NCBI RefSeq assembly: GCF_001281405.1
Contig: NZ_CP010401.1
Coordinates: 396,001-460,000, forward strand
Direction: 5' to 3'
DNA: 64,000 bases
Source: Bartonella ancashensis
GTDB taxonomy: Bacteria; Pseudomonadota; Alphaproteobacteria; Rhizobiales; Rhizobiaceae
Below, one piece after another: positions 25,406 to 57,221 of the stretch. Position numbers and translations under genes: made by a program. The notes below the pieces were generated by a model. That model worked only from the letters and a program-made list of their open reading frames with translations. It was not told the DNA's origin and did not search any database. Numbering within the stretch: the first letter of the stretch is position 1; every line of letters begins with the position of its first letter.

Positions 25406-25553
25406 GCCAACCTCACTCCTGTACAACAAGCAAACCAAGATGACACCCGAGAACGCAACGCGTCGTCGGATGTTGACCTCTGGGATTCCCACACTCACAG
25501 CGAGATCTCAGTCGGTGGCTCCAAGATAATTCTTGTCACTGAATGCTTACCAT

Positions 25554-49862: not shown

Positions 49863-49937
49863 GCGGGTGTAGCTCAGGGGTAGAGCACAACCTTGCCAAG
49901 GTTGGGGTCGTGGGTTCGAATCCCATCGCCCGCTCCA
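49863..49937 (+). tRNA. tRNA-Gly(GCC)
   Basis: 75 bases including an encoded CCA. Acceptor stem GCGGGTG/CGCCCGC, D-arm GCTCAGGGGTAGAGC, anticodon arm CAACCTTGCCAAGGTTG with GCC, and T-arm GTGGGTTCGAATCCCAT are all well paired. Confidence 0.97.
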
Positions 49938-54818: not shown

Positions 54819-55757
54819 TTAACCACTCTTCTGCTGATCAACAAGGGGATGATGCTCATTTACTAAACGATAAAGGCCTGTTTCTAACACATGTGTGTAA
54901 ATTTGAGTGGTTGAAATATCACTGTGGCCTAATAAATGTTGCACTACACGTAAATCAGCACCATTTTGCAAAAGATGGCTTGCAAAAGCATGGCGCAAAA
55001 CATGAGGAGAAAAATCTTCACCATTTATTCCTGCTCTTTTAGCGAGATCTTTCAGTCCTCTAGCAATAAATTGGCGAGCAATATATCCTGTTGATGAACG
55101 TGCAGGAAAAAGATATGGACTTCCAGCATCTTGCCCCTTGTCACGCACAAGAAGCCACTGAGAAAGAGTTTGGCACGCCTTCGCAGAGAGGAGAACCATC
55201 CTTTCTTTTTTACCCTTACCACACACTAAAATAAACTGCTCCTCTCCTCGTACTGCTTGCACAGGAAGACTCACCAACTCACTAATACGAAGACCTGTAG
55301 CATAAAGCATTTCAGCTAAAACTTGAAGACGTAACGTGCGAAGATAATTCTTAGATCCATGATCTGCTTGATCAACTTCTAACTGTGCATGGTCGAGTAA
55401 TTTCATAACCACATCCTCACTTACAATCTTGGGCAAAGAACGCCCTTGACGAGGTGTATCAATATCACTAGAGGGATTATCTTTCCTCAATCCTTCGGCA
55501 TAAAGAAATTGGTAAAATTGACGCAAAGTTGATAAACGGCGTGCTTGTGAAGTTGCTGCAAAACCAGACATATGCATAAATGACAAAAGGCTAATTAAAT
55601 CTTTCCTTTGTGCTGAAAAAAGAGAAACTTCGCGTGAAGACAATTCATCTTGTGCCCATTGTAAATCGCGATGATAAGCTGCGAGCGTGTGAACAGAAAT
55701 CCCTCGCTCAGCACTCATCATTTCAAGAAATTGATCAACAATAACATTGTTTTCCAT
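54819..55757 (-). CDS. xerD: Tyrosine recombinase XerD
   Basis: 312-residue partner of XerC in dimer resolution at dif. The N-terminal core-binding domain (about 5-95) precedes a catalytic domain with Arg157 (TGLRISEL), Lys181 (GKGKKER), His252 and Arg255 (HVLRHAFASHLL), His278 (LLGHSDISTTQ) and nucleophile Tyr287. The start MENNVIVDQF has GAGGA eight bases upstream; the frame extends 15 codons further without better support. Position beside accA identifies it as xerD. Confidence 0.93.
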   Translation of the reverse strand: MENNVIVDQFLEMMSAERGISVHTLAAYHRDLQWAQDELSSREVSLFSAQRKDLISLLSFMHMSGFAATSQARRLSTLRQFYQFLYAEGLRKDNPSSDIDTPRQGRSLPKIVSEDVVMKLLDHAQLEVDQADHGSKNYLRTLRLQVLAEMLYATGLRISELVSLPVQAVRGEEQFILVCGKGKKERMVLLSAKACQTLSQWLLVRDKGQDAGSPYLFPARSSTGYIARQFIARGLKDLAKRAGINGEDFSPHVLRHAFASHLLQNGADLRVVQHLLGHSDISTTQIYTHVLETGLYRLVNEHHPLVDQQKSG

Positions 55758-56484
55758 GAAATAATCCTCAACCACATACCTAATGAATTTACAACCATAC
55801 ATCTAAAAGAGACCAACAGGCGAACCCATCGCTTACTATTTTATTTGTTCAATATAAATCACCATCATACCGATGAAGAATAATCGTAATAAGAGAAATC
55901 ACTAACCTAACCCTATATAAAACGTGGAATAACTGATTATCTCTTCTATTATATATTAATATTATACCTCGTAAAAATTAACAGGAACTGACTTTAGAAA
56001 AAATAAATACAACACCAAAATCATCAATAATGATACTGTAACCCAATTTTCATTGCTTATAATATGGTAAATTACACTACAATTTAATCAATAACCACTT
56101 GTATTTATTGACTTTATTAGACAATAATCAACAGTTAATCGAGATATTGCAGCCATTATCTGTTAACTATCCCACAATTAGTCGGCCAAGTGACTAAAAA
56201 ATATACATGAGAATTTCTAAGTTTTTCAAAATTGGTATTGTGCTTTATCGCACTCCTTCAAAGAGAAAATTACACTCCTAATGTCCTCTAAAGAGATATC
56301 TCTACTCTTACAGTGAATAGAAACATGAAATTTTCCTCATGCAAAAAATAACAGCTGATAATTCATTGTCAAAACATCTCATATTCAATCTTTCTACAAT
56401 AAAAATTCGTGGAAAATCATTTAATCACACTTACTGAATTGATTATAACTTACCTTTTCGCTAGATTAAGAAAAAAGTCGCTGT
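55758..56484. other. Long AT-rich spacer between xerD and tRNA-Arg
   Basis: About 730 bases with no supportable gene on either strand. In many relatives aroK and aroB lie upstream of xerD; no trace of them is seen. It should contain the divergent promoters of xerD and the tRNA. Confidence 0.6.
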
Positions 56485-56793
56485 GTCTGCGTAGCTCAGT
56501 AGGATAGAGCACAGGATTCCTAAGAAATTGGGCGCTTTGAAAAGAAATTTTCATTGTGGATCTGCTCAAATTCGGGGAACGCTTCATGGGGAACCATATG
56601 CCAATCCCGAGCCAAGCCTGCTTTATAAAGAGTAGGAAGGTGTAGAGACTGAACGGGTAGTACCTAAAGAGCATCAGCTTTAAGGTAAAGAGACAGTCCA
56701 GACCACGAACAGCCTATTACTTATAGGTTGGCGGCGAAAGTCGAAGTGGTATGAATCCTGGGGTCGTAGGTTCAAATCCTACCGTAGACACCA
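56485..56793 (+). tRNA. tRNA-Arg(CCU), interrupted by a group I intron
   Basis: The 5' exon is 56485-56521 and the 3' exon 56754-56793; joined they give a 77-base tRNA with encoded CCA. The acceptor stem GTCTGCG/CGTAGAC pairs fully with one G-U, the D-arm is GCTCAGTAGGATAGAGC, the anticodon arm CAGGA-TTCCTAA-TCCTG has anticodon CCT, and the T-arm is GTAGGTTCAAATCCTAC. The intron follows the third anticodon base (U36). Without splicing the product could not function as a tRNA. Confidence 0.93.
56522..56753 (+). ncRNA. Group I self-splicing intron in tRNA-Arg(CCU)
   Basis: 232-base intron. The 5' site is after U36, and P1 forms from CCU|AA-GAAA-UUGGG, giving the required U-G pair at the splice site and a GAAA loop. 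The last base is G (56753). Core elements are visible: P6 as CCTGC...GTAGG, the P7 5' strand in GTAGAGACTGAACGGG (about 56642-56657), P8 as TACCTAAAG/CTTTAAGGTA, the P7 3' strand in AAGAGACAGTCCAGACC (about 56688-56704), and a P9 hairpin CCTAT-TACTT-ATAGG. It has no ORF or homing endonuclease. The small size and tRNA host fit the bacterial IC3 subgroup, and an intron at tRNA-Arg(CCU) is known from Agrobacterium. Confidence 0.9.
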
Positions 56794-56834: not shown

Positions 56835-57221
56835 ATGAAAAAGATAACCTTGTTTATTTTAGGAACTTTACCTCTTGGAGGTATTTTACTTTTTAAACAA
56901 TTCAACCCTTTTAGCGATTCTTTGACCATTGAAATACCGAAAGATTCAAAATTAACCAAAGAAACAGTCAAATATCTATGTGACACCGGAGTAGATAAAG
57001 AAAAAGTCGACGTAACTTATTTCAATGCTAGAAATATCTCCCTAGCTGACTTTACTTGGAAGGGCGACCGCGTTGTTGGTGCAAATGTTATTTCTGCATC
57101 TGGGGTTAAATTTATGGGAGGCCAGTATATTTGGTGGACAAGAAAAAATGAAGCTGTGCTCTACGACCTTATAAACGATCCAGCACAGGAAAATCCTACT
57201 CACTGTGAAGAAGAAAAATAG
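56835..57221 (+). CDS. MliC-family lysozyme inhibitor
   Basis: 128-residue secreted or membrane-anchored protein with an N-terminal hydrophobic segment (MKKITLFILGTLPLGGILLF) and the MliC/PliC domain: VKYLCDTG, VDVTYFNARNISLADFTWKG, NVISASGVKFMGGQYIWWTRKNEAVLYD. In MliC the SASGAKY-like loop plugs the active site of c-type lysozymes. No lipobox cysteine is seen in the signal region, so it may be anchored by its helix. AAGGAAATATA precedes the ATG. It lies 41 bases after the intron-bearing tRNA-Arg gene. Confidence 0.82.
   Translation: MKKITLFILGTLPLGGILLFKQFNPFSDSLTIEIPKDSKLTKETVKYLCDTGVDKEKVDVTYFNARNISLADFTWKGDRVVGANVISASGVKFMGGQYIWWTRKNEAVLYDLINDPAQENPTHCEEEK

Follow-up and report, generated by a model that had tools for sequence, protein, structure and literature searches.

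A group I intron in the tRNA-Arg(CCU) gene of Bartonella ancashensis and its relationship to BbgpI of Bartonella bacilliformis

A tRNA-Arg(CCU) gene in the 64,000-nucleotide stretch of the B. ancashensis chromosome analysed here (the window) is split by an insert directly after its anticodon, between U36 and A37, according to both ARAGORN in intron mode and a direct reading of the letters. What is this insert, is it likely to splice, does the cell depend on it, and how did it come to lie in this gene? When introns were allowed, ARAGORN called a tRNA-Arg(cct) with a 232-nt intron, and the two exons, joined by a script, give a standard 77-nt tRNA-Arg(cct) with intact stems. A preliminary description of this DNA, made from the letters alone, had proposed a 232-base insert between tRNA halves that fold perfectly, and its coordinates and length proved exact. 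Its warning that a simple tRNA search would miss the gene was also borne out: without intron mode ARAGORN missed the split gene and returned only a tRNA-Gly (49863-49937) in the window. At 232 nt the intron is too short for an endonuclease gene. A promoter scan upstream of the tRNA gave no site on the plus strand, and sites were fewer than in shuffled sequences. The features of the locus are collected in Table 1.

Table 1. Coordinates of the split tRNA gene, its proposed intron helices and its neighbours in the window
Feature	Position	Strand	Basis
Integrase/recombinase gene	54819-55802	-	
Stretch between integrase/recombinase gene and tRNA; aroB not here	55803..56484	.	Protein comparison
tRNA-Arg(CCU) gene, whole	56485-56793	+	ARAGORN intron mode and direct reading
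5' exon, acceptor 5' side to anticodon base U36	56485..56521	+	ARAGORN intron mode, direct reading
Group I intron, 232 nt, last base G	56522..56753	+	Rfam match, ARAGORN, hand-placed structure
P1: exon CCU 56519-56521 with intron GGG 56530-56532, U-G at splice site	56519..56532	+	Same in 60/60, partly via row choice by exon letters
P2 hairpin, GAAA loop	56533..56558	+	8/9 pairs changed on both sides; 85.5% of cells paired
P3: 56562-56567 with 56655-56660	56562..56660	+	100% of cells paired; 3/6 pairs changed on both sides
P4 (56571-56576 with 56606-56611) around P5 (56581-56601)	56571..56611	+	Hand-placed, covariation count
P6 and P6a	56612..56640	+	Hand-placed, covariation count
P7: 56647-56651 with 56694-56698	56647..56698	+	Invariant, hence without covariation evidence
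P8	56662..56686	+	Outer pairs firm, distal pairs weak
P9 with P9a (56711-56729) and P9b (56732-56743, GAAA loop)	56702..56750	+	Hand-placed, covariation count
3' exon, A37 onward, CCA encoded	56754..56793	+	ARAGORN intron mode, direct reading
MliC (lysozyme inhibitor) domain protein	56835..57221	+	Pfam PF09864

The insert has the makings of a group I intron. The preliminary description had suggested a run of the Rfam group I model; cmscan of the window with RF00028 gave a match at 56509-56712 scoring 53.0 bits, above the gathering score of 50 (E 1.3e-10), although a search of the whole window genome (G000; 1,467,695 bases) with the same model returned no match. The intron has the P3-P7 core, ends in G and carries a U-G pair in P1 at its 5' splice site; P6, P8 and P9, which the preliminary description had also listed, are present too, the distal part of P8 being weak. 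Helices P1 to P9b were assigned manually in the window sequence, and we counted the 67 named pairs over an alignment of 60 introns, picked for diversity from 160 distinct tRNA-Arg introns (25 of the 70 from the genus and 35 of the 90 from elsewhere). Standard pairs fill 89.2% of 3875 cells (78.0% in shuffles) and both sides of a pair have changed in 546 cells (179.8 in shuffles), with such double changes at 42 of the pairs; none of 500 shuffles equalled any of five measures, and sliding the partners by one to three columns lowers the pairing to 29-45%. Because one of the 60 rows served as the template for the structure, the count is somewhat favoured. Pairing is least regular in P8 (62.1% of cells, the distal part not being conserved as drawn), and the outermost pair of P4 is unpaired in 27 of the 60 rows. 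P1 and P7 are invariant, partly by selection, because the pattern scan and the extraction rule admitted only rows with the P1 exon letters and a portion of P7; this invariance speaks neither for nor against pairing. All 101 loci that were found by DNA similarity alone (71 in the genus, 30 elsewhere in the family) retain P7 and the terminal G. Covariation over the 60 introns supports P1-P9 beyond chance, and with the Rfam match and the properly joining exons it upholds the earlier reading of a group I intron in tRNA-Arg(CCU). Its subgroup is putatively group IC3.

Guanosine-initiated splicing in two steps is established for group I introns generally, and P7 is their guanosine site. The window copy is inferred to splice by these steps: the precursor tRNA would fold around the intron core, P7 would bind a guanosine that attacks after U36 at the U-G pair of P1, the freed U36 would attack behind the intron's terminal G, and the joining of U36 to A37 would yield a normal tRNA-Arg(CCU).

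A close relative has already been described. According to the report on BbgpI, the group I intron in tRNA-Arg(CCU) of B. bacilliformis, this intron splices in vivo and self-splices in vitro, has CCT repeats on either side and first came to light as a small RNA with high expression; its host gene was unannotated, and tRNAscan-SE detects it only once the intron is removed (PMC7717549). Our minus-strand match in one of the genus genomes (G006:C1:42403-42709) falls within two bases of the BbgpI locus as given in that report (c42404-42711; PMC7717549), and the window intron is identical to this copy (L005) at 195 of 229 aligned bases.

The preliminary description had also held that, if the gene is single copy, splicing is needed to decode AGG, and had called for a check for another AGG-reading tRNA. 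No second tRNA-Arg(CCU) was found in the window genome, where the window query has two further DNA matches, both short (33 and 22 bases), in tRNA-Met and tRNA-His; our tRNA list for this genome, with 38 genes, is incomplete, since Ile(GAU) and Ala(UGC) are missing from it. A tRNA-Arg(UCU) is present there, and such a tRNA is expected to read AGG by wobble. Full-length matches to it of at least 95% occur in 70 of the 71 genus genomes (the anticodon was read in the window genome only), the one genome without a match (G062) being 85% complete. Because this expected AGG reader is so widespread, essentiality is unsupported, and we rejected the proposal that AGG decoding requires splicing.

How widely is the intron distributed? 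All 71 Bartonella genomes have a full-length match (72-100% identity), and all 71 loci are tRNA-Arg(cct) genes with an intron of 220-278 nt, representing 70 distinct introns. The family is patchy. In a sample of 297 family genomes, 51 have a match with an E value of 1e-8 or lower, a threshold that weak relatives could escape: 35 of these carry tRNA-Arg introns (five of them in the genus), 11 carry tRNA-Leu(UAA) introns and five have an uninterrupted tRNA-Arg(CCU). Some sampled genera are uniform (g18, 5/5; g7, 4/4) and others are mixed (g70, 2/4; g80, 1/4). A 77-base tRNA query against the 297 genomes also matches other tRNAs among the matches listed, so it gives no intron-free count. An exact pattern for tRNA-Arg(CCU) split after U36 hit at least 120 stretches of named genomes, a scan that yields names and not frequencies; the matches listed include Agrobacterium, Rhizobium, Phyllobacterium, Aureimonas, Gluconobacter, Bombella, Siccirubricoccus, Magnetospirillum and others. 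The window intron has kin in sequence among the tRNA-Arg(CCU) introns of other genera, and the kinship with the Agrobacterium intron, to which the preliminary description had pointed, holds (Agrobacterium records have the same split, and a family member shows about 70% identity).

The combined collection of 237 loci holds 172 distinct introns: 70 from the genus, 90 other tRNA-Arg introns (none bearing the genus name) and 12 tRNA-Leu introns. Three loci (L071, L076 and L089) were included under a looser extraction rule, and L111 (G149), which is cut by a contig end and has no ARAGORN call, was taken as tRNA-Arg by its exon pattern. ARAGORN misnamed several loci by choosing other intron edges: L090, L097 and L098 as tRNA-His, L099, L100 and L108 as Ser, and L031 as Stop. 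We read L090, L031, L099 and L108 by hand as Arg or Leu, and assigned L097, L098 and L100 by exon pattern. In each of four viral contigs (L277-L280) a split tRNA-Arg(CCU) lies close to one of the ends. The examined parts of these contigs showed no further copy of the tRNA end. The gene on the outer side in L277 and L280 resembles, by eye, a chromosomal peptidase, so the contigs are more likely to be prophages that integrated next to the tRNA than phages that carry the intron.

The tRNA-Leu(UAA) relatives (L099-L109, in 11 of the 297 family genomes) are group I introns between U34 and A35, which is where the group I introns of cyanobacterial tRNA-Leu(UAA) sit; one of the genomes that carry them (G114) is perhaps Liberibacter crescens. 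Three examples (L031, L099 and L109) share a related core with the window intron, identical at 151-154 of 212-215 aligned bases, but differ from it in the tRNA and in the insertion point. L031 comes from plasmid pCTX-M3 (NC_004464.2; L031 2766-3231), with the intron-split tRNA-Leu(UAA) at L031 2933-3231, and is grouped with L281, L282 and L283. Searched with the window intron, 1266 of 72,556 plasmid records match at 60-80% and none over 80% of the query. The plasmid tRNA is found in 635 of 5426 complete Escherichia coli genomes (656 of 658 records at 99% or more), and in two enterobacterial plasmid records that we inspected it lies near aac(3)-IId (aac(3)-II). No annotated feature lies under it in the six rows examined, the plasmid gene table being without RNA genes, and a literature search on the plasmid split tRNA-Leu(UAA) found nothing. 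The plasmid stretch is 86% identical over 469 bases to G274, of the Rhizobiaceae family, and 95% identical over about 300 bases to G327, identities that hint at an origin in an alphaproteobacterial chromosome.

The neighbourhood of the gene bears on its history. In most genus loci the gene directly before the tRNA is aroB, for 3-dehydroquinate synthase (PF01761, PF24621). With the B. bacilliformis protein as query, matches covering 300 or more of 390 residues turned up in 63 of the 71 loci, all on the strand of the tRNA and stopping 46-76 bases short of it. Four loci (L003, L027, L131 and L133) retain no more than remnants, and aroB is absent beside the tRNA in another four (L001, which is the window, L002, L115 and L128). 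We found no aroB match in the 64-kb window and no match to PF01761, the DHQ synthase domain, in the window genome (11 of 14 control genomes were positive); aroB has gone from this genome, and the tRNA with its intron has stayed. Downstream, 56 of the 71 genus loci have matches to the MliC-domain protein and to its MrpG- and MrpF-like neighbours. A match to the ffh sRNA family lies elsewhere in the window (25436-25487, minus strand). Outside the genus, aroB adjoins the split tRNA in seven relatives (L073, L076, L077, L089, L094, L096 and L113), and in G142 (L155) it precedes an uninterrupted tRNA-Arg(CCU), an empty site.

Intron distances follow AroB distances with a Mantel r of 0.92 (0 of 2000 permutations) over the 63 genus loci that keep enough AroB, the window genome not being among them, and with an r of 0.89 (0 of 2000) when the seven relatives are added; as AroB is physically linked to the intron, the comparison addresses joint inheritance of the locus and not of the genome. 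The intron appears to have been inherited vertically within Bartonella, as the preliminary description had suggested, and this reading is well supported because of the presence in all 71 genomes, the aroB neighbour and the Mantel result. The comparison of intron and host that had also been proposed was mixed: the distances agree with AroB, but two quick intron trees break up the genus, since the genus clade of the FastTree tree takes in nine other rows and the genus needs two changes on the quick IQ-TREE tree. The intron tree is weakly resolved (77 of 169 inner branches are open), and a tree constrained to hold the genus together has the better likelihood (p-AU 0.9), which does not prove a clade.

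Almost certainly, then, the insert belongs to the alphaproteobacterial tRNA-Arg(CCU) family of self-splicing group I introns, is an orthologue of BbgpI and has been vertically inherited within Bartonella. That the Bartonella species each gained it independently, instead of inheriting it from an ancestor, is very improbable: the broken genus in the quick trees and the patchy family would fit such gains, but the constrained tree, the agreement of intron with AroB distances and the position directly behind aroB, or behind its remnants, argue against them. An older event is another matter. The ancestor of Bartonella and its near relatives, and not that of the whole family, may have gained the intron horizontally at the aroB locus, a possibility that is compatible with our preferred reading and to which we give a substantial chance, somewhat short of even. 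The empty site in G142 and the patchy family distribution speak for it, and a 1999 paper by Paquin et al. on the tRNA-Arg(CCU) introns of Agrobacterium and other alphaproteobacteria reportedly argues, by its title, for horizontal transmission; a loss in G142 would give the same pattern, however, and the trees are unrooted and undated.

Could the insert instead be a dead intron in a tRNA pseudogene, which no longer splices and leaves AGG to tRNA-Arg(UCU) alone? With that tRNA present, loss of the CCU gene could be tolerated, and AGG accounts for few arginine codons (48 of 1005 in 47 ORFs of the window that were chosen mechanically); but the exon stems are intact, the paired structure is kept across the 60 sequences, both exons and the intron are kept in all the genus genomes, and the BbgpI report describes splicing of the B. 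bacilliformis orthologue (PMC7717549), so that a dead intron is exceedingly improbable. Domestication, in which Bartonella would have kept the self-splicing intron throughout because the excised RNA or the splicing rate serves the cell, e.g. by controlling how much AGG tRNA is available, strikes us as very improbable too. The high expression by which BbgpI was first noticed (PMC7717549) would fit it, but retention alone proves little, because other genera (g18 and g7) are also uniform.

The intron opens no new kind of system. Being present throughout the genus and patchy in the family, it offers a reasonable example for studying the fixation of a selfish RNA, and the locus illustrates that reading raw sequence can spot a gene overlooked by a standard tRNA search; tRNA lists for Bartonella may omit tRNA-Arg(CCU). 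Compared with the alphaproteobacterial tRNA-Arg(CCU) introns (Agrobacterium, Rhizobium, Aureimonas, Bombella and Magnetospirillum), the window intron has the same tRNA and the same split, with lower identity to a family member such as L080 (154 of 221 aligned bases). It is closest to BbgpI: the two share the genus, the tRNA, CCT on both flanks and the downstream neighbours, and they differ in that the window copy lies in another genome, measures 232 rather than 230 nt and is without the adjoining aroB. It is thus an already known intron, published in a sister species and correctly spotted here.
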